A stretch of DNA of 64,000 nucleotides, taken from NCBI RefSeq assembly GCF_029633965.1, contig NZ_CP091277.1, positions 1,485,940-1,549,939 on the forward strand, written 5' to 3'. Positions 17,437-30,907 of the stretch are shown here, piece by piece. The stretch's first letter is position 1. Each line of letters opens with the position of its first letter. The position numbers and the translations under genes were made by a program. The notes below the pieces were generated by a model that did no database searches, was not told the DNA's origin, and saw only the letters and a list, made by a program, of their open reading frames with translations. Origin of the DNA: Methanogenium sp. S4BF (lineage in GTDB: Archaea; Halobacteriota; Methanomicrobia; Methanomicrobiales; Methanomicrobiaceae).

Positions 17437-17619
17437 ATGACAACAGATGAACTGACAAAAATATTCGAAGAGTTCGGAATTGAGAATGAAATCACCTGTC
17501 CACAGGCATTTGAGATCTCTGAGAAATACGGCGTATCAAAGACAGAGATTGCCCGCTACTGCAACAGCCGGGATCCCCGGATCAAAATCAGGGGCTGCCA
17601 GCTGGGCTGTTTCAAATGA
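17437..17619 (+). CDS. Small uncharacterised protein with C-terminal GCQLGCF motif
   Basis: This 60-residue protein has a helix-rich body, with PQAFEISEKYGVSKTEIARYCN resembling a degenerate helix-turn-helix, and ends in RGCQLGCFK with two closely spaced cysteines; a further Cys is at 20 and one at about 42. Its stop overlaps the moeA start (ATGA), so both are translated together. This suggests a role with molybdenum/tungsten cofactor, perhaps as a metal-sensing or cofactor-binding accessory. I know no established function. The frame is supported by the overlap and by the divergent promoter upstream. Confidence 0.65.
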   Translation: MTTDELTKIFEEFGIENEITCPQAFEISEKYGVSKTEIARYCNSRDPRIKIRGCQLGCFK

Positions 17620-18818
17620 GCATTTTTCTTGAACTGATACCGGTCGCCGAAGCAGAGAGGATTCTGCAGGGAATTGCTCCGCAGATGGAGGAAGAAAAGA
17701 TCCCCCTCACCGAGGCATTCGGGAGAGTCCTCTCCCGGCCCGTCACCGCAGCAGAAGATATTCCCGGTTTCACCCGCACAGTGGTGGACGGGTATGCCGT
17801 CCGTGCGGCAGATACCATCGGTGCAGGTGAGGCACTGCCTGCTATGCTTACCATCACCGGCCGTGTCGGAATGGGAGACGGAGATGCGGGCACAGTCGGA
17901 CCCGGTGAATGCAGGTATGTACCAACAGGTGCGGTCATACCGGATGGTGCCGATGCCGCTGTGATGATTGAATACGCTGAAGAGTCCGGAAACGATGTCC
18001 TCATCTACCGTGCGGTCGCACAGGGAGAGAACCTCACCCTCCGGGGGGACGATTTCCGGAGATCGGATCTGGTATTTCCGGCAGGCAGACGCCTGTCACC
18101 CCGCGACCTCGGTGTTCTGGGTTCGCTGGGCATCACCACGGTGCCGGTCCGCAGGCGGCCGGTACTCGGGATCATCAGCACCGGGAATGAACTCATCAGC
18201 CCTGACCGGACACCCGGACCCGGAGAGATCAGGGATGTAAACACCTATCTTTGCGACGGATACGCACGGGAACGGGGTGCCATCCCACGCATCTATGGCA
18301 TCATACCCGATGAACGCGAACCTCTCGAGGCGGCCATCAGGCTGGCAGTCAGCGAATGCGACCTGGTATGCATCTCGGGCGGCAGCTCCAAAGGGGAACG
18401 CGACATGTGTGCTGCCATTCTAGCAGACCTCGGCACAGTCCATGTTCACGGCATCGCACTTGCGCCGGGCAAGCCGACCATCATCGGCACCATTGATGGC
18501 ATCCCTGTACTGGGCCTTCCCGGCCACCCGGCGTCTGCCTATGTGGTCCTCGTAGCGCTTGGCGATGTACTCATCGCCGCGATGACGGAAGGCGAAGTCG
18601 CACGCATAACCGTGCCGGCCCGCTGTGCCGCCCCGGTACCGTCAGTACGGGGACGGGAGGACTATGTGCGTGTCAGGCTGGAGGGGAGGGACGCATACCC
18701 GCTCTTCGGGAAATCCGGCCTCACCAATACGCTTATCGAAAGCAGCGGACTGCTCCGCGTCCCTGACGGCAGGGAAGGATATGAGAAGGGAGCAGAGGTT
18801 GAGGTGATCCTGTGGTGA
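17616..18818 (+). CDS. moeA: Molybdopterin molybdenumtransferase MoeA
   Basis: This 400-residue MoeA inserts molybdate or tungstate into adenylylated molybdopterin. Features include TRTVVDGYAVRAADT (about 53-67), the domain III sequence ISTGNELISPDRTPGPGEIRDVNTYL, GGSSKGERDM (about 256), and LAPGKPTIIG...GLPGHPAS (about 288-310). Length is normal. It overlaps the small gene before it and nearly abuts a second moeA-type gene. It is divergent from the fwd operon, whose FwdB needs this cofactor. Confidence 0.94.
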   Translation: MSIFLELIPVAEAERILQGIAPQMEEEKIPLTEAFGRVLSRPVTAAEDIPGFTRTVVDGYAVRAADTIGAGEALPAMLTITGRVGMGDGDAGTVGPGECRYVPTGAVIPDGADAAVMIEYAEESGNDVLIYRAVAQGENLTLRGDDFRRSDLVFPAGRRLSPRDLGVLGSLGITTVPVRRRPVLGIISTGNELISPDRTPGPGEIRDVNTYLCDGYARERGAIPRIYGIIPDEREPLEAAIRLAVSECDLVCISGGSSKGERDMCAAILADLGTVHVHGIALAPGKPTIIGTIDGIPVLGLPGHPASAYVVLVALGDVLIAAMTEGEVARITVPARCAAPVPSVRGREDYVRVRLEGRDAYPLFGKSGLTNTLIESSGLLRVPDGREGYEKGAEVEVILW

Positions 18819-18820
18819 CC

Positions 18821-20683
18821 ATGGTACGACGATATCTCGAACTGGTTTCCCTGGAGGAGGCCCTCAAAACAACACTCTCATCATTCCCGTACATTCCCAT
18901 CGTGGAAGAGACCCCCCTCTCTGAGGCAGCGGGCCGGGTGACGGCGGCACCGGTATTTACCCGGCAGTCGGTTCCCCCGGTACACCTCTCCGCGATGGAC
19001 GGGATTGCCGTCCGGAGCGAAGACACCATCGGTGCCGCTGAACAGCGTCCGGTGACCCTGCAGCACTTCCGGCGGGTGAATACCGGCAATGTCGTTCCCT
19101 CAGAGTATGACGCCGTCATCATGATCGAGGACGTGGAGGAGGAGGACACAGGACAGTATATCATCCGCAGGGCCGCGGCCCCGTGGCAGCATATACGGCC
19201 GGTGGGAGAAGATATCGGCGAATCTGAGATGATTGTCCCCTCATCGCACCGTATCCGCCCTCATGAGATTGGCGCACTGGCAGCCTACGGCGTGACAACA
19301 GTCCCGGTCCGGACCGTCCGTGTCGGACTCATTGCCACCGGCAGTGAACTGGTGCCTCCCGGCACCCGCCCGGAAGCAGGCCAGGTTGTCGAGAGCAATA
19401 TGCAGATGGCGGCAGCATGCCTGCGTGACCTCGGCGCCACGCCCACCCATTACGGCATCGTGCCGGATGAGCCGGAACAGATCCGTGAGGCGGTCATCCG
19501 CGGCATCCGGGAGAATGATATGCTGATCATCTCCGCCGGATCCTCCAAAGGCACCCGCGATTACACGGCATCCATTATCGAAGATCTTGGCAGGGTGTTC
19601 ATCCATGGTGTTGCCATCAAACCGGCCCGCCCCGTGATCATCGGTGCCATTGACGGCAAACCCGTCATCGGCACACCCGGATACCCGCTTGCCGCATACA
19701 CCATCATCCGTGAATTCATCAGCCCGATGATGGGTGCATACGGCCTGCAGCCGCCGTCGCCTGAGACTGTCCCTGCCGTCCTCTCCACCCGGCTTGATTC
19801 GGCAGGGGGCACGGACGAATTTGTTCTGCTCTCCGTGGGCAGAGTCGGCGGCCGGTGGGTGGCTGTTCCCCAGTCACGGGGGGCCGGCGTACAGATGAGT
19901 GCAGTCCGTGCGAATGCCTACATGAAAATTCCCGCACGGAAAGAAGGAGTGATGAACGGCGAGGAGGTGCAGGCGACCCTGATGGTTCCGCAGTCTGCTG
20001 CTGCTGAATCCCTCCTCATCACCGGCAGCCATGACCCGTGCATTGACTACCTTGCTGATATGCTCCGGGAACATGCGGTAACCCTCCATCCCACCCATGC
20101 CGGCAGTATGGGAGGCGTTCTTTCGCTGAAACAGGACACCTGCCATGTGGCGCCGATGCACCTTCTTGCAGAGGACGGCACCTACAATATCCGGTACCTT
20201 GAAAAGTATATGCCGGAAACACCGCTCACCCTCATCTGCGGGGCAGAACGGGAGCAGGGCATCATCGCACCCGAACCGGTCACATTCGATGAACTCATCG
20301 GCAAACGGATCATCAACCGCCAGAAGGGTTCGGGGACCCGCATTCTCTTTGACCATCTCCTCAGACAGAGAGGGGTGGACCCGACAGAGATCACAGGATA
20401 CGGACGGGAGGCAACCACCCATCTTGCCGTAGCCCTTGCCGTCCGGTCAGGGGAGGCGGAAGCAGGCATCGGCGTATACAGTGCGGCAAAGGCCCTTGGC
20501 CTTGCGTTCACTCCCATCGGGACAGAACGCTATGAACTGGTGACACGGACAGCGACTCTGGAGGCCATGCCCGAAGTGCGTATGCTCTTCGATCAGGTGT
20601 CCTCAGATAGTTTCAAAGATACACTGCACCGCCTGGGCGGTTACCGAACAGAAGAAACAGGGATAATCAGAAGAATTCCCTGA
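18821..20683 (+). CDS. MoeA fused to a C-terminal periplasmic-binding-protein-like domain
   Basis: This 620-residue two-domain protein has MoeA at residues 1-400 (AMDGIAVRSEDT, IATGSELVPPGTRPEAGQ, GSSKGTRDY, KPARPVIIG...GTPGYPLAA). It is followed by a substrate-binding-like domain (about 405-615; LITGSHDPCIDYLADML, GSMGGVLSL, NRQKGSGTR, YGREATTHLAVA) of the type found in ModE/LysR-associated molybdate-responsive proteins. I prefer the ATG at 18821 over two in-frame GTGs at 18812 and 18815. It starts two bases after the first moeA stops. Paired MoeA-type proteins, one with this fusion, are common in archaea; one may serve tungsten and the other molybdenum, which is inference. Confidence 0.9.
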   Translation: MVRRYLELVSLEEALKTTLSSFPYIPIVEETPLSEAAGRVTAAPVFTRQSVPPVHLSAMDGIAVRSEDTIGAAEQRPVTLQHFRRVNTGNVVPSEYDAVIMIEDVEEEDTGQYIIRRAAAPWQHIRPVGEDIGESEMIVPSSHRIRPHEIGALAAYGVTTVPVRTVRVGLIATGSELVPPGTRPEAGQVVESNMQMAAACLRDLGATPTHYGIVPDEPEQIREAVIRGIRENDMLIISAGSSKGTRDYTASIIEDLGRVFIHGVAIKPARPVIIGAIDGKPVIGTPGYPLAAYTIIREFISPMMGAYGLQPPSPETVPAVLSTRLDSAGGTDEFVLLSVGRVGGRWVAVPQSRGAGVQMSAVRANAYMKIPARKEGVMNGEEVQATLMVPQSAAAESLLITGSHDPCIDYLADMLREHAVTLHPTHAGSMGGVLSLKQDTCHVAPMHLLAEDGTYNIRYLEKYMPETPLTLICGAEREQGIIAPEPVTFDELIGKRIINRQKGSGTRILFDHLLRQRGVDPTEITGYGREATTHLAVALAVRSGEAEAGIGVYSAAKALGLAFTPIGTERYELVTRTATLEAMPEVRMLFDQVSSDSFKDTLHRLGGYRTEETGIIRRIP

Positions 20684-22336: not shown

Positions 22337-23293
22337 ATGGAAGTATTCACACCTGACGAGATACAGAAACGGTTCGGGCGCCTTTTTTCCCAGCGCCTGC
22401 TGGTGATGGTGGATGAAGAGGCAGGACGGGCAGAGATCCTTGAAGAATGCCGGTGCCGCGGCTCCATTGAATGGGATGTAATGAACCGGAAACGTGCCGG
22501 CGGTGCTGTCACCGGCATCACGGTTGAAGGCACATCAATGACCATGCAGGCAAAAATTGGCCATTATCCTGCCCGTTTCGGCCCGGCTGACCAGGAACTG
22601 GGCGGTCAGGCACTCGAGGGTGTGGAGATACGCGGGGACGAGGTTGTCACGTCCTGGGCAGGCATCGCCGGCGCCGGTGTTGGTGTGGCGGCATGCCTCC
22701 CGCAGGCACCCGGGGTTATTCGGACGGAATATGATTCCGCAGATGACCTGAAGATAGGGGGTGCCCGAATCAACCGGTCCCGCATTGTCACCCCCCGATA
22801 TGAGAAGGTCACCATCGGCATCGATGATACGGATACCAAAGAGGAAGGGGCGACATGGGTGCTTGCAAGCCAGTGCGCCGAGGCATGCCCGATAGAAGGC
22901 GTACAATACCTGAATATGCGCCTCATCCAGCTGAACCCAAAGGTCCCGAACAAAACGACCAACTGTGTCGGTTCGGCCCTGAACTTTGCGGTGCGTCCGG
23001 ATAAAACACAGGAGCTGCTTGCCTATGTGCGGGACTTCATCCAGATGCACGCCGTCAGTAATGACACCGGTATCGCAGTCTACCGCGGCATCGGCCTTCC
23101 GGAGGAGTCACCCTACCAGACGAAAGTAAAGACCGAGGTCTTAAATCAGGAGGAATGCGAGGCAGAGGCGGCACGGCTTGGGATCACCTATATCGACACC
23201 TGTGCAGGAAAGGGGCGAATCGGGGCACTCGGCGCAGTGCTCTGGGCAAACAAAGGCATTGAAGCGGCCGGACTCTATGGCGAACATCTCTGA
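22337..23293 (+). CDS. Mmp11-like protein with central GIDDTDT domain (first tandem copy)
   Basis: This 318-residue protein has an N-terminal domain of about 150 residues and a C-terminal domain opening with TIGIDDTDTKEEGATW (about 155-170). That signature is shared by the agmatinylcytidine synthetase TiaS catalytic domain and the methanogen-specific family known as methanogenesis marker protein 11. Other features are KTTNCVGSALNF and SNDTGIAVYRG. The next gene is a paralogue with the same layout. It begins the operon that leads into aksA. The DDTD segment implies nucleotide-dependent kinase or synthetase chemistry, but the substrate is unknown. I am unsure which of the two copies is the orthologue of the named family. 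Confidence 0.72.
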   Translation: MEVFTPDEIQKRFGRLFSQRLLVMVDEEAGRAEILEECRCRGSIEWDVMNRKRAGGAVTGITVEGTSMTMQAKIGHYPARFGPADQELGGQALEGVEIRGDEVVTSWAGIAGAGVGVAACLPQAPGVIRTEYDSADDLKIGGARINRSRIVTPRYEKVTIGIDDTDTKEEGATWVLASQCAEACPIEGVQYLNMRLIQLNPKVPNKTTNCVGSALNFAVRPDKTQELLAYVRDFIQMHAVSNDTGIAVYRGIGLPEESPYQTKVKTEVLNQEECEAEAARLGITYIDTCAGKGRIGALGAVLWANKGIEAAGLYGEHL

Positions 23294-24167
23294 CCCCTAT
23301 TCCATCCGGTATCCGGAGATCTGCGCAGTCGCGGATAGTGACGGCACCACCGTTGAACTGATCGAAGAGTTTGCATGCGTCGGCGGGGCGATGTGGGCAG
23401 GCCACAATTACCGGAAGAGCCCTCTTGTGCAGTCGGTCCGCATGGTCGGCAACACCCAGCGCTTCCTGCTCTCTGCAGGAGAGACAAACCTCGCTCTGGA
23501 AGGCTCCTACTTCCCGGCCGGCATTGCCGGGGTGGATGTCACGGAAAATGAGATAGGCATCACCTACCGCGGCGTGGGCGGCGGCGGTGTGGGGGCCACG
23601 GTCTGCCGGGCAGCGGCGGCAGGCGTCATCCGCTCAACAAGCGACCCCTGCGGCGGCGGGCGTGAAGCGGGTGCCCAAATCTGGCTTCCCCGGCGTGAGC
23701 GCGTCATCATCGGCGTGGATGACACCGATACCCCTGAGGAGGGGGCCACCTGGACGCTTGCCCATAACATCGCTGAGGCGGTGCAGACACCGGAGACACG
23801 CTATATCTCCCATACCATTGTCCAGCTCTTTCCGGTGCCCTACCGGACCAAAAACTGCGTTGGTGTGGCATGTGAGTTCGCCACCACCGAACCCGAACAG
23901 CTGGTGACTGCATTTGAGGAGATGCTCCGGAAATATACCCTCTCGGATGAGACGGGCATGGCTGTATTCCGCGGCTTCTCCCCTGCACCCCTCACTGAAT
24001 ATGGGTGGAAGGTGAAACGCGGAGAGGTCACCCGGGATGACCTGAATGCGATTCGTGAGCATATCGAAATCCGCCTTGACGGGCGGGGCATCATCGGTGC
24101 TGCAGCGGCCATCCCGTTTGCAACCCGGTACAAAGAGGCGCTGTCCATATGCACTGGGGAGCCCTGA
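23277..24167 (+). CDS. Methanogenesis marker protein 11-like (second tandem copy)
   Basis: This 296-residue paralogue of the preceding gene has an N-terminal domain (SDPYSIRYPEI, HNYRKSPLVQSVR, GNTQRFLLSAGETN), a glycine-rich GVGGGGVGAT turn, then IIGVDDTDTPEEGATWTLAHN (about 142-162), KNCVGVACEF and SDETGMAVFRG. I start it at the ATG at 23277, inside the last 17 bases of the first copy; the frame extends upstream without family-like sequence. It overlaps the next gene by 19 bases, so the three are coupled. The family is confined to methanogens as I recall, with no proven reaction. Confidence 0.75.
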   Translation: MANISDPYSIRYPEICAVADSDGTTVELIEEFACVGGAMWAGHNYRKSPLVQSVRMVGNTQRFLLSAGETNLALEGSYFPAGIAGVDVTENEIGITYRGVGGGGVGATVCRAAAAGVIRSTSDPCGGGREAGAQIWLPRRERVIIGVDDTDTPEEGATWTLAHNIAEAVQTPETRYISHTIVQLFPVPYRTKNCVGVACEFATTEPEQLVTAFEEMLRKYTLSDETGMAVFRGFSPAPLTEYGWKVKRGEVTRDDLNAIREHIEIRLDGRGIIGAAAAIPFATRYKEALSICTGEP

Positions 24168-26308
24168 AAGCCCGGATTCTCGCATACGGAACCGTGCGGC
24201 CCACCGGGGCCTACCGGTTCTGTCCGGAACAGTCTACCGCAGGCCCGGGGGCAGGCGGCAGTGGTTCCGTCTTTTTTACAACTGCTCATGGCCGTATCCG
24301 GCTCACTATCAGTGAACATTCACCCCTTACCCTGACCGCGGATGCAGACGGCGCCGCCCGCCTTACCGGACCGGGAATTGACGTTGCCGGATACATCGAG
24401 GAGCCCGTATACCACTGCCCCCGGCAGGCATACATCACCCTCTCAGAGGGGTGCATCTTCTCCTGCCGCTACTGTGCGGTGCCCGCTCTCGCGGGACGGA
24501 TCAAGACGGCAGAGGAGGTCACCGCCATGATTGCAGCAGCGGCAGATGAAATTGATGCAATATCCCTCACGAGCGGAGTCATCGGCTCCGTTGAGGATGA
24601 CGAGGAACGGGCCGTTGCCATGGTGCATGCGGTGGCAGGGTTCGGCATTCCGGTGGGCGTCTCCATCTATCCCCTGCCCGGCACCCCCCGACGACTCAAA
24701 GACGCCGGGGCCTGTGAAGTGAAGTTCAATATTGAGGCGGCAACACCGGCCCTCTTCCGGGAGATGTGCCCCGGACTGGACTATGAAGGCACCTGGTCAG
24801 TACTGGAAGAATCCGTTTCCGTATTCGGCAGAAACCGGGTCTTCTCCAATGTGATCCTCGGGCTGGGAGAGACCGATGCAGAGATGATGGCATGCATCTG
24901 CCGCCTCACAGACATCGGGGTGATTCCTGTCATCCGCCCCCTGAATCCCTCCCCGAACCTCCCGGGACTTCTCCGCCCATCTGCGGAGCGCATTCTCAAG
25001 ATTGCGGAATTTGCCGCAGAAGAACTGAAAAAAGCCGGCCTTGACCCCACACAGGCGAAGACGATGTGCACCCTGTGCGGCGGATGTGATCTCGTGCCTG
25101 GGAAGGATCTTGTGAACCACACCCCGCGGCACGACGCAAACGGGGAGGCATGCCTCGCCGCTGCCCTCCGGGCGGCAGCAGACCGTTTCTACACGGTGCC
25201 GGGATACCCCGTGACCACCCTGGCGGAGGCCTGCGGAGCGGTATGCACGGTAAACGAGAAAGTCGCCCTCGAGTATGCACTCGGGGACGCCATCTCCGGC
25301 CGCCGGGCCTGCGTAATTCTGAAGAATGTCGGCCTGAACGCCTGCATGGACCCCCTGATGAACGCCGCCGTGCAGGGCCTCTCTGCGGGGCTTGTCATCG
25401 TCGTGGGGGATGACACGGAGGTTTCCGGGTCACAGAATGCACAGGACTCCCGCTGTATCGGAAGGGTGGCGGAAGCCCCGACATTCGCCCCGGCGGCAGA
25501 TGACCTTGCCGTGGTGGCAGAGGCGGCATTTCAGGCCTCTGAACAATTCTCCCGCATCGCACTGGTGCGGGTGACACCGGCCGTTCTTGCAGCAGCGGCG
25601 GCCGGCACCCCGCCGGCACGGGCCGACCACAAGGGAACCATTGCAGATTCGTCACTCACCATGCGGGGGCGGGCTGAGGCAGCAGAGATACGGCACAGCG
25701 AGATGGTGCGGTGGGCACAGGAGCGTCCCGTCCCTGCCCTCGTCTATCCCCCGCACCAGGGACCGGTGCCGTCCTGTTCAACAGTTGCCCCTCCGGCAGG
25801 AGCCCCCGAGACGATGCAGTCACGCGGGTTTGCCCGCACCTTCTGCAGAAACTGCCCGTACATCCCCCTCCTGCAGGTAATGCGGGATGAAGGACTGCAT
25901 CCGGTGCTCGACATCGGCTGCGGCCTCCTTGCCAAAAACCCGCCATGGGAGGTGGGCTCTGCCGGATACGGGCTGGGTTCAGCACCTGCGGTGGCGGCAA
26001 CGAGTACCGGCGTGGCACTGATGGGGGACTATGCACTGATGCACTCCGGGCTGAGCGCCCTTGCAGACATCCGGGAGAAAGAGTTGGACGTTCTTGTTGT
26101 GATCGTGGAAAACGGCGTTCTGGGTATGACCGGGAAACAGGCAGCGCCGGAAATCCTGCCCTATATCAGCTGGGCGGCACCGGTGATTGTGAATGCCGCT
26201 GACCGTGAGGCCGTCCGTGCCGCACTGGTGCGGGAAGAGAAGCTGAAATGCGTGATTATCCGGGGCCGGTGCCCCGGGGGAGAGGAACATGAAACCGTGG
26301 AATGTTGA
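24149..26308 (+). CDS. Radical SAM / TPP-enzyme (indolepyruvate oxidoreductase alpha-like) fusion
   Basis: This 719-residue two-enzyme fusion is in the coenzyme B operon. Residues 1-320 form a radical SAM domain with C102-x3-C106-x2-C109 (CIFSCRYC) and an auxiliary CTLCGGC motif at 307-313. Residues 330-480 match the TPP-pyrimidine/alpha domain of indolepyruvate ferredoxin oxidoreductase (NEKVALEYALGDAISG, LKNVGLNACMDPLM, GSQNAQDSR). Residues 560-710 match its TPP-binding core (FCRNCPY, MGDYALMHSG, VENGVLGMTGKQ). The usual C-terminal ferredoxin domain and the beta-subunit gene are absent. It overlaps both the Mmp11-like gene and aksA. Inference: a 2-oxoacid decarboxylase or related enzyme acting on 2-oxosuberate or its products, with radical chemistry in the same polypeptide. 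Confidence 0.85.
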   Translation: MHWGALKARILAYGTVRPTGAYRFCPEQSTAGPGAGGSGSVFFTTAHGRIRLTISEHSPLTLTADADGAARLTGPGIDVAGYIEEPVYHCPRQAYITLSEGCIFSCRYCAVPALAGRIKTAEEVTAMIAAAADEIDAISLTSGVIGSVEDDEERAVAMVHAVAGFGIPVGVSIYPLPGTPRRLKDAGACEVKFNIEAATPALFREMCPGLDYEGTWSVLEESVSVFGRNRVFSNVILGLGETDAEMMACICRLTDIGVIPVIRPLNPSPNLPGLLRPSAERILKIAEFAAEELKKAGLDPTQAKTMCTLCGGCDLVPGKDLVNHTPRHDANGEACLAAALRAAADRFYTVPGYPVTTLAEACGAVCTVNEKVALEYALGDAISGRRACVILKNVGLNACMDPLMNAAVQGLSAGLVIVVGDDTEVSGSQNAQDSRCIGRVAEAPTFAPAADDLAVVAEAAFQASEQFSRIALVRVTPAVLAAAAAGTPPARADHKGTIADSSLTMRGRAEAAEIRHSEMVRWAQERPVPALVYPPHQGPVPSCSTVAPPAGAPETMQSRGFARTFCRNCPYIPLLQVMRDEGLHPVLDIGCGLLAKNPPWEVGSAGYGLGSAPAVAATSTGVALMGDYALMHSGLSALADIREKELDVLVVIVENGVLGMTGKQAAPEILPYISWAAPVIVNAADREAVRAALVREEKLKCVIIRGRCPGGEEHETVEC

Positions 26309-27419
26309 GATCTGTGATGTGACACTCCGTGATGGTGAACAGACACCCGGCGTGTCATTTACCTGTGAAGAGAAGATGGCAATCGCCTCACTGCTGGATG
26401 AAACCGGAGTAGAGGTAATTGAAGCCGGTTTTCCGGTGGTATCAGAGAATGAGCACCGGTGCGTAAAGGAGATCTGCAGAATGGGGCTGGACGCCCGGAT
26501 CTGCTGTCTGGCACGTGCCCTCCCCGGCGATATCGATGCGGCCATCGAATGCGGGGTGGAGCTGGTGAGCATCTTTATTGCGACATCCGAACTGCATATG
26601 CGGATAAAATACCGCTGTTCAGCCGATGAGATGCTGGAGCGGGCCCTCGGAATGGTCGATTATGCCCATGACCATGGGATCGCCGTCCGTTTCGCAGCAG
26701 AGGACGGCTCCCGCACGGACCCTGCCTTTCTGCGGAAGATGTATGCGGCAGGAGCGGAGCGTGGTGCAGAGTATTCAGGATTTGCCGATACACTCGGGTG
26801 CCTGACACCGGTTGAAATGATGCGGTTTATGGAGCATACCGGCAGTAAAATATCGAACAAGCTCGCGGTCCACTGCCACAACGACCTCGGCTGTGCCACC
26901 GCAAATACGATCACAGCAGCAGAATACGGCGCATTTCAGCTGCATACTACGGTTAACGGCATCGGAGAGCGGACCGGCAACGCCCGGCTCGAAGAGGTGC
27001 TCGCCCTCCTCCGGCTGAAAGGAGGCGTGGAGCGCTATGATCTCACCCGTATCCCCGAACTCTCTTCGATGGTGGAACGCTACAGCGGCATTACGATGAT
27101 GGACACGAAACCGGTGGTGGGGAAGAATGCCTTCTCCCACGAAAGCGGCATCCATATCGCAGCGATGCTCGAAGATCCGGAGACATATGAATATCTCCGT
27201 CCGGAGACGGTGGGCAGGCAGCGGCAGTATATCCTCGGCAAACACACCGGAAAAAAGGCTATCGAACATGTGATCGCCTCAAAGGGATGCGCCCTCTCTC
27301 AGGAACAGGTGCACTGGGTGCTCTGCCAGGTAAAGGATATCTCTGAAGGGAAATGCAGAATCACCGACGATGTCCTCATGGCACTGCTGCGTGAGGCACA
27401 GGATCAGGGGGATGCATGA
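26289..27419 (+). CDS. aksA: Homocitrate synthase family, AksA (coenzyme B)
   Basis: This 376-residue 2-isopropylmalate-synthase-family enzyme condenses acetyl-CoA with 2-oxoglutarate and then the longer 2-oxoacids made in each elongation round. CDVTLRDGEQTPGVSFT at the N-terminus carries the catalytic Arg-Asp pair; HCHNDLGCATANT holds metal-ligand histidines, followed by GERTGNARLEE. Linkage to aksD, aksE and aksF marks it as AksA rather than LeuA or CimA, whose C-terminal leucine-binding domain would add over 100 residues. A ribosome site (GGGGGAGAGG) lies within the end of the preceding gene. Confidence 0.9.
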   Translation: MKPWNVEICDVTLRDGEQTPGVSFTCEEKMAIASLLDETGVEVIEAGFPVVSENEHRCVKEICRMGLDARICCLARALPGDIDAAIECGVELVSIFIATSELHMRIKYRCSADEMLERALGMVDYAHDHGIAVRFAAEDGSRTDPAFLRKMYAAGAERGAEYSGFADTLGCLTPVEMMRFMEHTGSKISNKLAVHCHNDLGCATANTITAAEYGAFQLHTTVNGIGERTGNARLEEVLALLRLKGGVERYDLTRIPELSSMVERYSGITMMDTKPVVGKNAFSHESGIHIAAMLEDPETYEYLRPETVGRQRQYILGKHTGKKAIEHVIASKGCALSQEQVHWVLCQVKDISEGKCRITDDVLMALLREAQDQGDA

Positions 27420-28630
27420 GCACACTCTCCGAACGCATCCTTGGCGGCCCTGCCGGCACCTATGTGGACCGGGCTGTGGACCGGGCGTTTGCCCACGACG
27501 GTACCGGCGTGCTTGCAATGGAGGCATACCGCCAGATGGGGAACCCGAAACCGGCACGCCCGGAGACTGTCTCCATCATCTACGATCACATCGCCCCCGC
27601 AAACACCTCACAGACGGCCACCCTCCAGAATGAGCTCAGGGAATTTGCCGCGGAAAAAGGGTTTGCCCTCACCGACGTCGGCGGCGGCATCTGCCACCAG
27701 CTGATGAGCGAAGGACGGGTGCTGCCCGGTGAAGTAGTCGTGGGGGCCGACTCCCACTCCTGCACGACGGGTGCCTTCGGGGCCTTCTCCACCGGCGTGG
27801 GGGCAACCGATATGGCAGCCATCTGGGCAGAGGGGAGCACCTGGTTCCGCGTCCCGGAGACGATATCTGTCAACCTCACCGGCTGCCTGCCCGCATGGTG
27901 CGAGCCAAAAGACATCGTCCTGACGGTCACCGGCACAATTGGCATGGACGGCGGCACCTACCGTGCGCTGGAATACACCGGCGACGGTGCCGATGCCCTT
28001 TCGATGGCAGGCCGGCTCACGCTCTCCAACATGGCAGTGGAGTGCGGTGCAAAGGCAGGCCTCTTCTATGCGGACAAAACAACACAGGAATACCTCGCCC
28101 GGTACGGCCACAGCGTGGAACGGCAGGAGCCGGAAGAGGGCACCTACTGCCGTGAACTCTCCGTCGACCTTGCCGACGCAGAACCCGTCCTCTCAGTGCC
28201 GCACCGGGTGGATACCGTGGCACCGGTGACAGATTATGCAGGTACCCCTCTCGATCAGGTCTTTGTCGGCACCTGCACGAACGGCCGGTATGAGGATCTG
28301 GAGCGCTTTGCCCGCATCGTCCGCGGACAGCAGGTGGCGTGCCGCACGATCGTCGTCCCGGCATCCCGTGCCATCATGCAGCAGGCAGCAGAGACCGGCA
28401 TCCTCGCAGAGATCATCGCTGCCGGATGCATAGTCGGCCCGCCGGGCTGCGGCCCCTGCCTCGGGATGCATATGGGTGTTCTCGGGGAAGGGGAAACCGC
28501 CCTCTCGACTGCCAACCGCAACTTCAAAAACCGGATGGGCATCGGGGCAGAATATTATCTCGGGTCGGTGGCAACGGCGGCGGCGAGTGCGCTGAAAGGT
28601 GAAATCACCTCACCGGAGGGCGCCATATGA
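27416..28630 (+). CDS. aksD: Homoaconitase large subunit (AksD)
   Basis: This 404-residue aconitase-superfamily large subunit isomerises homocitrate-type intermediates in 2-oxosuberate synthesis. GGGICHQLMSEG, GADSHSCTTGAFGAF, VGTCTNGRYEDL and GPPGCGPCLGMH provide the substrate loops and three Cys ligands of the [4Fe-4S] cluster. It overlaps aksA by four bases (ATGA) and aksE by four bases. The leuC paralogue in this window (54.6 kb) is similar, but the operon partners separate their roles. Confidence 0.92.
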   Translation: MSTLSERILGGPAGTYVDRAVDRAFAHDGTGVLAMEAYRQMGNPKPARPETVSIIYDHIAPANTSQTATLQNELREFAAEKGFALTDVGGGICHQLMSEGRVLPGEVVVGADSHSCTTGAFGAFSTGVGATDMAAIWAEGSTWFRVPETISVNLTGCLPAWCEPKDIVLTVTGTIGMDGGTYRALEYTGDGADALSMAGRLTLSNMAVECGAKAGLFYADKTTQEYLARYGHSVERQEPEEGTYCRELSVDLADAEPVLSVPHRVDTVAPVTDYAGTPLDQVFVGTCTNGRYEDLERFARIVRGQQVACRTIVVPASRAIMQQAAETGILAEIIAAGCIVGPPGCGPCLGMHMGVLGEGETALSTANRNFKNRMGIGAEYYLGSVATAAASALKGEITSPEGAI

Positions 28631-29097
28631 CGCTCTCCGGCCATGCTGTCTGTATCGGAGCAGACATCGACACCGACCTTGTGATCGCCGGCCGGTACCT
28701 CCGGACGAAAGACACCTCGGTCTGGGCGGAGCATGTCTTCGAAGACCTCGACCCGACGCTTGCCCCCCGGCTAAAGGGCGCAGTCATCGTGGCAGGCAAT
28801 AATATGGGGTGCGGATCATCACGCGAACAGGCGCCGGTCGCCATACGGGAGGCTGGTGCCATCGCAGTCATCGCCCCCTCGTTTGCCCGGATCTTCTTTA
28901 GGAATGCAATTAACGTGGGCCTCCCGGTCATCGAGTGCGACAGCCTCGTCTGCGGCGAAGGCAGCACCGTCACCATCTCACTGGAGGAGGGATGGGTTGA
29001 AGCGAACGGCGTGCGTCACCCGATCCGCCCCCTTTCCGGCAGGATGCAGGAGATTCTTGCTGCAGGCGGACTCGTTCCATACTGGAGAAACCGATGA
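28627..29097 (+). CDS. aksE: Homoaconitase small subunit (AksE)
   Basis: This 156-residue swivelling domain of homoaconitase selects substrate. The specificity loop reads YLRT (24-27), the signature reported for methanogen homoaconitase, in contrast to the YLVY-type loop of isopropylmalate isomerase. NNMGCGSSREQAPVA and SFARIFFRNAINVGLPV are the conserved core. It overlaps its neighbours on both sides. The call as the coenzyme B rather than the leucine enzyme rests on this loop plus context. Confidence 0.93.
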   Translation: MTLSGHAVCIGADIDTDLVIAGRYLRTKDTSVWAEHVFEDLDPTLAPRLKGAVIVAGNNMGCGSSREQAPVAIREAGAIAVIAPSFARIFFRNAINVGLPVIECDSLVCGEGSTVTISLEEGWVEANGVRHPIRPLSGRMQEILAAGGLVPYWRNR

Positions 29098-29939
29098 TCT
29101 TCCCGGAAGCATGCAAAATTGTCGGATACGCCGAGGGGAGGCCCGCCGGAGATAAGGTCTATTTCCTCTCACAATACCTCGTACGGCAGACAAAGACCGG
29201 GTACGAAGTGCTGGAAGTGGAGACAGAAGAGGGCACCAGCATACTCAGGGACATTAAATCATCGCACCTGCTCGCCGGAGAGGCGGATGTCTGCATGTAC
29301 CCTGAAAAAGTCAACCTCCATAACCGCCCGGATCTCATCCGCCGGGCACGCGGGACGGGGAAATTCTGCACGGTCTTCATCGGGCTCGATGAACACATGA
29401 CGATTATCTGTGAACCGTCAGACGAACACCTCATCACCATTCATGTCTATGACGCAGAGCCCCCCCGCCCGAATCTGGCTCATACCATCCGCGATCTTGA
29501 AGAAACCGGTCTCTTCGAGGAATGCGGCGTGCAGTTCTGCTACCATATCGCAGACATCAGGGATACCGCATCAGAGGTCTATCCCTGCCGGGCGGCAGGA
29601 TTCTCACGCACGATTGACAATGACCGGCTGCGGGGCGATGAAACGGTGGCAGGATGCCTGACCGGCAGGCAGGTGCTTGCCGAATGCTATGGAGAGAAGG
29701 CGGCGTTCAGAGTCACCGACATCTGCCCGGCCAACCGGGTGGCACAGGAGCCCTACATCGCCCGGTGCTGCCGGATGGAACGGACCGGCATCGGTGTCCA
29801 TGACGGCTGCTACGGTTCGATTGTTCACTGGGGGGCGTCCCCCCGCACCATCGCAGAGGCGGTCTTTGCTGTCTGTGAGGGGTGGGAAAAGAGAAGAACG
29901 GAGATGGAGAATACGACAACGGAGGCACAGAATCAATGA
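29094..29939 (+). CDS. Uncharacterised cysteine-rich protein embedded in the aks operon
   Basis: This 281-residue soluble protein has no signal or membrane segment. It is rich in cysteine (at least a dozen), including ECGVQFCYH, DICPANR and IARCCRMERTG, with histidines near several. The first ~100 residues look strand-rich (VGYAEGRPAGDKVYFLSQYL), the rest mixed alpha/beta with a conserved-looking GCYGSIVHWGASPRT close to the end. It overlaps aksE by four bases and aksF by four bases, so it is translated with the pathway. I recognise no named family with a function. A role in coenzyme B synthesis after 2-oxosuberate, or as an iron-sulfur/zinc enzyme in that pathway, is inference from context. 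Confidence 0.75.
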   Translation: MIFPEACKIVGYAEGRPAGDKVYFLSQYLVRQTKTGYEVLEVETEEGTSILRDIKSSHLLAGEADVCMYPEKVNLHNRPDLIRRARGTGKFCTVFIGLDEHMTIICEPSDEHLITIHVYDAEPPRPNLAHTIRDLEETGLFEECGVQFCYHIADIRDTASEVYPCRAAGFSRTIDNDRLRGDETVAGCLTGRQVLAECYGEKAAFRVTDICPANRVAQEPYIARCCRMERTGIGVHDGCYGSIVHWGASPRTIAEAVFAVCEGWEKRRTEMENTTTEAQNQ

Positions 29940-30907
29940 CCGCGATTGCAGTCGCCGAGGGCGACGGCATCGGGCAGGAGGTCATCCCGGTGGCACAGGA
30001 CGTCCTTGCACTGCTCCACCCGGAGTATGAATACTATCCTGTGGAGATTGGCTATGGAAAGTGGATGAAGACCGGAGAGGCATGCACCGCAGATGACATC
30101 GCCCTCCTGCGTGATGCAGACGCCATCCTCTTCGGAGCGGTGACCACCCCGCCTGCGTCCGATTACCGCAGTGTCGTCCTGCAGATACGAAAAGAGCTGG
30201 ACCTCTATGCCAACCTCCGCCCGGTACAGGGAAACGGGGTGGACATCATGGTCGTGCGGGAGAACACTGAAGGACTCTATTCCGGCGTCGAATGGCAGGA
30301 GGAAGACCGCGCCTGCACCCTGCGGATCATCACCCGGAAGGGGAGCGAACGGATTGCCCGGGCCGCCTGCAGGATTGCACGGGAGCGGAAGAACCGGTTG
30401 ACCATCGGGAACAAGGCAAATGTCATCAAATCAGACGCCTTCTTCCGGGACATATGCATCCGGACAGCAGAGGAAGAGGGCGTCCCGTACACCACCGCCT
30501 TCATCGACGCCCTGACCCTCGATGTCCTCATACACCCGGACCGCTATGATGTCATCGTCACCACGAACATCTTCGGTGACATCCTCTCTGATGCGGCCGC
30601 ATATCTGGTGGGAGGACTGGGGATGCTCCCCAGCGCAAATATCGGAGACCGGCATGCACTCTTTGAGCCCGTCCACGGGAGTGCCCCTGATATTGCCGGA
30701 CAGGGCATCGCAAACCCGGTCGCCGCTGTCCGGTCAGCAGCGATGCTGCTATCCCATCGGGGAGATACAGCCGGGGCAGCCCATATAGAAGAGGCCATCA
30801 GGCTGACCGCTGAAGCCGGCATCACGACGCGGGATAGCGGCGGAACGGCCACCACCGCAGAGTCAGGTGCCGCGATCATCGCCGCCCTTACCCGGCTGAT
30901 GGAATAG
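29936..30907 (+). CDS. aksF: Homoisocitrate dehydrogenase family (AksF)
   Basis: This 323-residue beta-decarboxylating dehydrogenase completes each round of 2-oxoacid elongation toward 2-oxosuberate. EGDGIGQEV binds NAD near the start; [13 protein letters not shown] and [15 protein letters not shown] are substrate loops; [19 protein letters not shown] has metal-binding aspartates; [14 protein letters not shown] closes the cofactor site. I start at the ATG at 29936, overlapping the preceding stop (ATGA); an upstream in-frame extension lies inside the previous gene. It ends the eight-gene operon. Confidence 0.92.

Follow-up and report, generated by a model that had tools for sequence, protein, structure and literature searches.

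Candidate radical S-adenosylmethionine and thiamine pyrophosphate enzymes for coenzyme B synthesis beyond 2-oxosuberate in the aks operon of Methanogenium and its relatives

Coenzyme B donates the electrons for almost all methane produced biologically, and its C7 acyl chain ends in a thiol. In the synthesis of this coenzyme the AksADEF enzymes build 2-oxosuberate, from which 7-oxoheptanoate is made and, from that, the thiol. The steps past 2-oxosuberate have been described as unknown (PMC3087415, PMC12068725), and an open-access literature search, lying outside most subscription journals, returned no paper identifying the enzymes involved. Related chemistry has been described elsewhere: LipS2 converts octanoyl to 8-mercaptooctanoyl groups, placing the thiol at the terminus of a C8 acyl chain (PMC9585515), ComDE of coenzyme M synthesis is a thiamine pyrophosphate (TPP) enzyme acting on a 2-oxoacid (PMC3087415), and COG1900 proteins perform an aldehyde-to-thiol chemistry that has been suggested for coenzyme B (PMC12068725). 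In Methanogenium sp. S4BF, a stretch of 64,000 nucleotides of contig NZ_CP091277.1 (hereafter the window) contains a 719-aa open reading frame (ORF) at 24149..26308 (+), which joins a radical S-adenosylmethionine module (rSAM) to a TPP module resembling the indolepyruvate oxidoreductase subunit IorA and overlaps the start of aksA by 20 nt. Both the fusion and the overlap, on which the original prediction of a role after 2-oxosuberate was built, are real, the former being supported by Pfam and NCBIfam domains and a CX3CX2C motif. Comparison with related genomes makes it moderately probable that the TPP module decarboxylates 2-oxosuberate after AksADEF and that rSAM acts later in coenzyme B synthesis.

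Natural gene loss in families f1 and f6 (61 genomes) carries the link between the TPP gene and the aks genes. AksA and AksD orthologues accompany the TPP gene in each of the 39 genomes that have it, and an AksD orthologue is present in none of the 20 usable genomes among the 22 that lack the TPP gene; G284 and G285, apparent cases of aks genes without the TPP gene, were rejected as contig ends. Because several of the 20 assemblies are incomplete and shared ancestry makes the counts non-independent, the case for joint loss rests on at least two independent lineages and not on a P value. In the first of these, which appears to be Methanomicrobium-like, G278, G280, and G281 have kept ftr-mmp11a-DUF7714 and lost mmp11b, rSAM, the TPP gene, aksA, aksD, aksE, and aksF, with no rSAM family member genome-wide at E<=1e-15, and the same genus also includes intact genomes. 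M. mobile, a Methanomicrobium, is listed as needing coenzyme B (PMC10658910). In the second, the apparently Methanocorpusculum-like genus g19 of f6, G296 and G298 have undergone the same clean in-situ excision as the three genomes above, while G024, G048, G289, G306, G287, and G303 keep mmp11a-mmp11b-rSAM (adjoined by DUF7714 in all of them except G303) and are missing TPP-aksADEF, which was cleanly excised in situ in G024 and G048. TPP-aksA-aksD-(aksE)-aksF lies at a separate locus in G290, G293, and G301, with mmp11a-mmp11b-rSAM-DUF7714 remaining at the old locus in G290 and G293. An independent study reports enrichment of genes for homocitrate synthase and homoaconitase in environmental Methanocorpusculum (PMC10035134).

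The operon is thereby split into modules that can be tested separately, namely TPP plus aksADEF, moved or lost as a unit, rSAM plus canonical Mmp11, lost additionally in two lineages, and mmp11a plus DUF7714, usually kept and standing outside the other two. The TPP gene has thus been lost exactly with aksADEF in lineages that are putative coenzyme B auxotrophs, and the TPP half of the earlier interpretation is better supported than sequence alone could show. Since the TPP gene is inseparable from the genes for the enzymes that make 2-oxosuberate, its product would be the next enzyme, a candidate 2-oxosuberate decarboxylase; judging by the order of the losses, rSAM and Mmp11 would in turn act after an intermediate that could reach some strains from outside. 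The same pattern offers a possible route to predicting coenzyme B auxotrophy in gut methanogens. Putative salvage genes were observed in aks-less genomes, including an aldehyde dehydrogenase gene 3' of DUF7714 in G278 (L193:10413-11930) and, one gene beyond, an AMP-binding ligase gene in G298 and G297 (L196:11391-13097).

In the window, the fused ORF is followed on the same strand by aksA (homocitrate-synthase-type, 26289..27419), aksD and aksE (large and small subunit types of homoaconitase, 27416..28630 and 28627..29097), the gene of a DUF7714 protein (29094..29939), and aksF (homoisocitrate dehydrogenase type, 29882..30907). In 20 loci of six Methanomicrobiales families the genes run, with minor departures, in the order mmp11-rSAM-TPP-aksA-aksD-aksE-DUF7714-aksF, and all 60 genomes searched across the order match the fused query, nearly always as two genes. 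The TPP gene adjoins aksA in f7 and f30 and shares a cluster with the aks genes in f14, where one locus (L116) reads mmp11-rSAM-TPP with aks close by; in f8 and f22 it overlaps canonical mmp11 or lies directly 3' of it. The rSAM gene is located apart from the TPP gene in most other families, and in L141 it forms an overlapping pair with mmp11, the TPP gene being elsewhere. For the TPP half, the proposed tie to aks is upheld by synteny in several families.

Among 247 genomes surveyed in the phylum, McrA was found in 148 and DUF7714 in 102; rSAM is present in all 102 of the latter and a TPP orthologue in 99-100, the exceptions being G024, G048, and perhaps G234. Among McrA-negative genomes, a TPP orthologue is confined to G172 and to two f7 genomes that are incomplete and have McrA-positive relatives. 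G184 was rejected as a further carrier outside the Mcr-containing genomes, its protein grouping with IorA, and the rSAM of G092 was rejected as evidence for f12, being near-identical to an f10 sequence and probably contamination. G172 (L133, contig C71) contains an aksA-D-E-F-TPP operon and, 3' of it, an AAA/adenylate-kinase-like gene, with no McrA, Mmp11, rSAM, or DUF7714 detected, and possibly uses 2-oxosuberate differently. This genome bears on the proposal that rSAM and the TPP module belong to another Mcr-linked pathway and merely travel with aks. In its favour, the operon also includes three genes that stay behind when aks is lost (ftr, mmp11a, and DUF7714); against it stand the loss and relocation of TPP and aks as one unit at separate loci and the presence in G172 of aksADEF-TPP without mmp11, rSAM, DUF7714, or a detected McrA, which make the proposal quite improbable.

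The TPP module (25112..26308, +) comprises a PYR domain, whose NEK motif (25253..25261) includes the presumed catalytic Glu, and a PP domain with the GD...N motif for TPP binding (26024..26113); it also has, at 25844..25855, the CX2C of a proximal cluster site of the 2-oxoacid:ferredoxin oxidoreductase (OFOR) type, the remaining two ligands of which lie at 25919-25921 and 26270-26272. Residues 603-667 match Pfam TPP_enzyme_C (43 bits, cut-off 21.9); the NCBIfam IorA model IOR_alpha (TIGR03336) gives 130 bits, with the best stretch at residues 366-477, and neither this score nor the 200-291 bits of long relatives reaches the cut-off of 650.9. A true IorA can coexist with the TPP gene, as in G007 (848 bits). 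The module shares with IorA the two domains, the NEK Glu, the GD...N motif, and four proximal-cluster Cys, and differs in having no IorB neighbour and no ferredoxin tail; the C-terminal 2x[4Fe-4S] ferredoxin domain is present in the IorA controls L153 and L154 and in none of the TPP members linked to aks or mmp11. Relatives in other families are about 500 aa long and include a middle domain, which the Methanomicrobiales form also lacks. The NEK Glu, the GD...N motif, and C246/C249/C271/C388 (module numbering) are invariant within the order, and E50, GD306-307, N335, and the four Cys are retained by all compared members except the G172 protein (L133), in which the cluster ligands are missing. 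Searching the PDB with a profile built from the TPP alignment gave nothing at E<=0.001.

In the proposed mechanism, the module would have derived from an IorA-type oxidoreductase by loss of the ferredoxin tail and beta partner, and would convert 2-oxosuberate to 7-oxoheptanoate and CO2 via a TPP-bound enamine. The possibility that it instead serves coenzyme M as a sulfopyruvate decarboxylase, replacing ComDE, draws on the analogous TPP chemistry of the two on a 2-oxoacid in coenzyme synthesis. ComDE differs in consisting of two separate subunits, and its ComD and ComE models have no match in the window protein at E<=0.01. As the last two steps of coenzyme M synthesis are described as universal (PMC12068725), ComDE would be expected in addition, and the TPP gene is lost with aks; such a substitution is very improbable.

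The rSAM module (residues 1-321; 24149..25111, +) matches Pfam Radical_SAM (PF04055) over residues 97-247 with 46.7 bits against a cut-off of 29.5, which together with its CX3CX2C motif (C102, C106, C109; 24452..24475) places it in the superfamily. Its neighbours by sequence and fold are lipoyl synthase, biotin synthase, and HydE (model confidence, pLDDT, 72), and its NCBIfam matches are TIGR04043, NF045502, and the LipS2-type model NF053743. Proteins of these three types likewise have CX3CX2C, extra conserved Cys near the C-terminus, and a LipA/BioB-like fold; rSAM is set apart by scores of 47-64 bits, below the cut-off of 270 (the window protein gives 55.6-58.7 bits with LipS2), its own CX2CX2CD motif, and linkage to coenzyme B genes. 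Seven Cys are invariant in 38/38 orthologues, namely the three of CX3CX2C, C207, and the C-terminal CX2CX2C (C307, C310, C313; 25067..25087), and C90 is present in 37/38. C207 and C307/C310/C313 probably form a second Fe-S site, with a spacing other than that of the auxiliary [4Fe-4S] ligands C85, C276, and C279 in LipS2 of T. kodakarensis. Kinship with LipA, BioB, and LipS2 together with this second invariant Cys set suggests a role in C-S bond formation, by which rSAM would act later in the pathway on the C7 acyl chain with sulfur from the auxiliary Fe-S cluster; the assignment is reasonable because LipS2 thiolates an octanoyl group and coenzyme B has its terminal thiol on a C7 chain. The predicted tie of the rSAM half to coenzyme B is upheld by its joint loss in two lineages and its kinship with sulfur-inserting enzymes. 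A second rSAM group lies among genes for O-acetylhomoserine sulfhydrylase, SepCysS, ThiI, NifS, and ThiF in five Methanomicrobiales families and f14 (L147-L152, e.g., L150:7691-8689), a sulfur-relay neighbourhood that fits sulfur chemistry.

Upstream of the fused ORF are tandem mmp11 paralogues (22337-24167), of which mmp11b (23280..24167, +; overlapping the fused ORF) is a canonical methanogenesis marker 11 with 331.2 bits against the TIGR03280 cut-off of 255.8, and mmp11a (22337..23293, +) is divergent and falls below it (215 bits). The Mmp11 of the stripped genomes is of the mmp11a type (61-70% identity to mmp11a and ~31% to mmp11b), and in other families (L116, L120-L129, L141) it is mmp11b that is linked to TPP or rSAM genes. 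Because it adjoins TPP or rSAM genes in several families and has been lost with the aks block in two lineages, mmp11a being kept in aks-less genomes, canonical Mmp11 (TiaS-like) is suggested to be a coenzyme B enzyme, probably the third of the pathway and perhaps an activating or ligating one, which would offer a possible role for a marker long without assignment. In the most extended form of the proposal, a LipS2-like rSAM installs the thiol on the C7 chain supplied by AksADEF and the IorA-derived decarboxylase, canonical Mmp11 activates or ligates the product, and one gene set accounts for all missing steps after 2-oxosuberate in Halobacteriota methanogens; this is tentative and rather doubtful.

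DUF7714 is remotely similar (53 bits, cut-off 150) to the XcbA proteins, which serve coenzyme M synthesis in bacteria. XcbA reportedly performs the last step of that synthesis, according to work by Wu and colleagues in 2022. A match to DUF7714 and NF052538 was found in the Methanosarcina acetivorans control and none in Methanocaldococcus jannaschii. DUF7714 is kept in 15 of the 20 genomes without TPP and aks, including those without rSAM and mmp11b; since it survives these losses, it is probably not a dedicated enzyme of de novo coenzyme B synthesis, and its candidacy as the thiol-forming enzyme, raised by synteny and XcbA similarity, was rejected. It may be a back-up coenzyme M synthase.

Several points weigh against the proposed roles of the TPP module and rSAM, which rest on sequence and gene context and are putative. 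Structure prediction for the TPP module from five sequences reached a mean pLDDT of only 42, too low for a usable model. No TPP gene was found in the ANME-1-like f10 genomes, part of which have rSAM, and neither gene in the Mcr-positive Archaeoglobi-like f9 genomes, in all of which the step must fall to a different enzyme; of the expectation that the gene occurs throughout methanogens, conservation of the split halves across the order stands and universality among Mcr-containing archaea does not. The four OFOR-type Cys, invariant in TPP members of the Mcr lineage, hint at a retained redox function and weaken the predicted non-oxidative chemistry, in favour of which remain the missing C-terminal ferredoxin domain and the lack of a beta subunit among the neighbours examined. 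They suit a module that is still an oxidoreductase, turning 2-oxosuberate into a pimeloyl derivative and handing electrons through its proximal [4Fe-4S] cluster either to rSAM or to an external carrier: CX2C, DxGC, and the C-terminal Cys are invariant, as in IorA, and the module is fused to or overlaps an electron-consuming radical SAM protein. Pimelate, however, does not lie on the path proposed towards the thiol, rSAM is retained without TPP in G024/G048 and others and is encoded elsewhere in most other families, and the aks-linked G172 member has no Cys ligands, an absence that favours non-oxidative chemistry, albeit in a single long-branched sequence. An oxidative TPP module is accordingly unlikely, and its role as electron donor to rSAM was rejected on the retention of rSAM without TPP.

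Also adverse to a thiol-forming rSAM is its separability, seven Methanocorpusculum-like genomes without TPP and aks having kept it. LipS2-type hydrogen abstraction offers no obvious route from aldehyde to thiol, a conversion that COG1900 proteins might instead bring about by reductive thiolation (PMC12068725). The TPP module might then decarboxylate 2-oxosuberate as proposed, with the thiol formed by a COG1900 sulfurtransferase (MMP16/ComF or L-ASST) or by DUF7714, and rSAM serving another step of coenzyme B synthesis or a related maturation. The COG1900 enzymes could form a thiol from an aldehyde; they are a protein family different from rSAM, outside the operon and unlinked to it. DUF7714 is in the operon and resembles a family linked to sulfoacetaldehyde and coenzyme M chemistry, and its persistence in the stripped genomes speaks against it. 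We regard this division of labour as a serious possibility, if not the expected one.

The fusion itself is lineage-specific and incidental. It is restricted to the window genome and L001 (= G274), in which one extra base relative to relatives at the stop/start overlap joins the two frames; in three other Methanogenium loci (L002-L004) the rSAM gene end and TPP gene start form an ATGA overlap between two genes, and in the other Methanomicrobiales examined the two genes overlap or abut. With both halves conserved as split genes in nearly all relatives, the notion of the fusion as a functional unit, which would hang on one extra base in two genomes, was rejected, and the fusion is not functionally essential. 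A Shine-Dalgarno-like GGAAGGA and an in-frame GTG remain at the junction (25101..25114, +), and the TPP half of the fused ORF may therefore also be translated on its own. Farther upstream, two consecutive moeA-type genes precede ftr (window 17616-20683), the second with a C-terminal extension.

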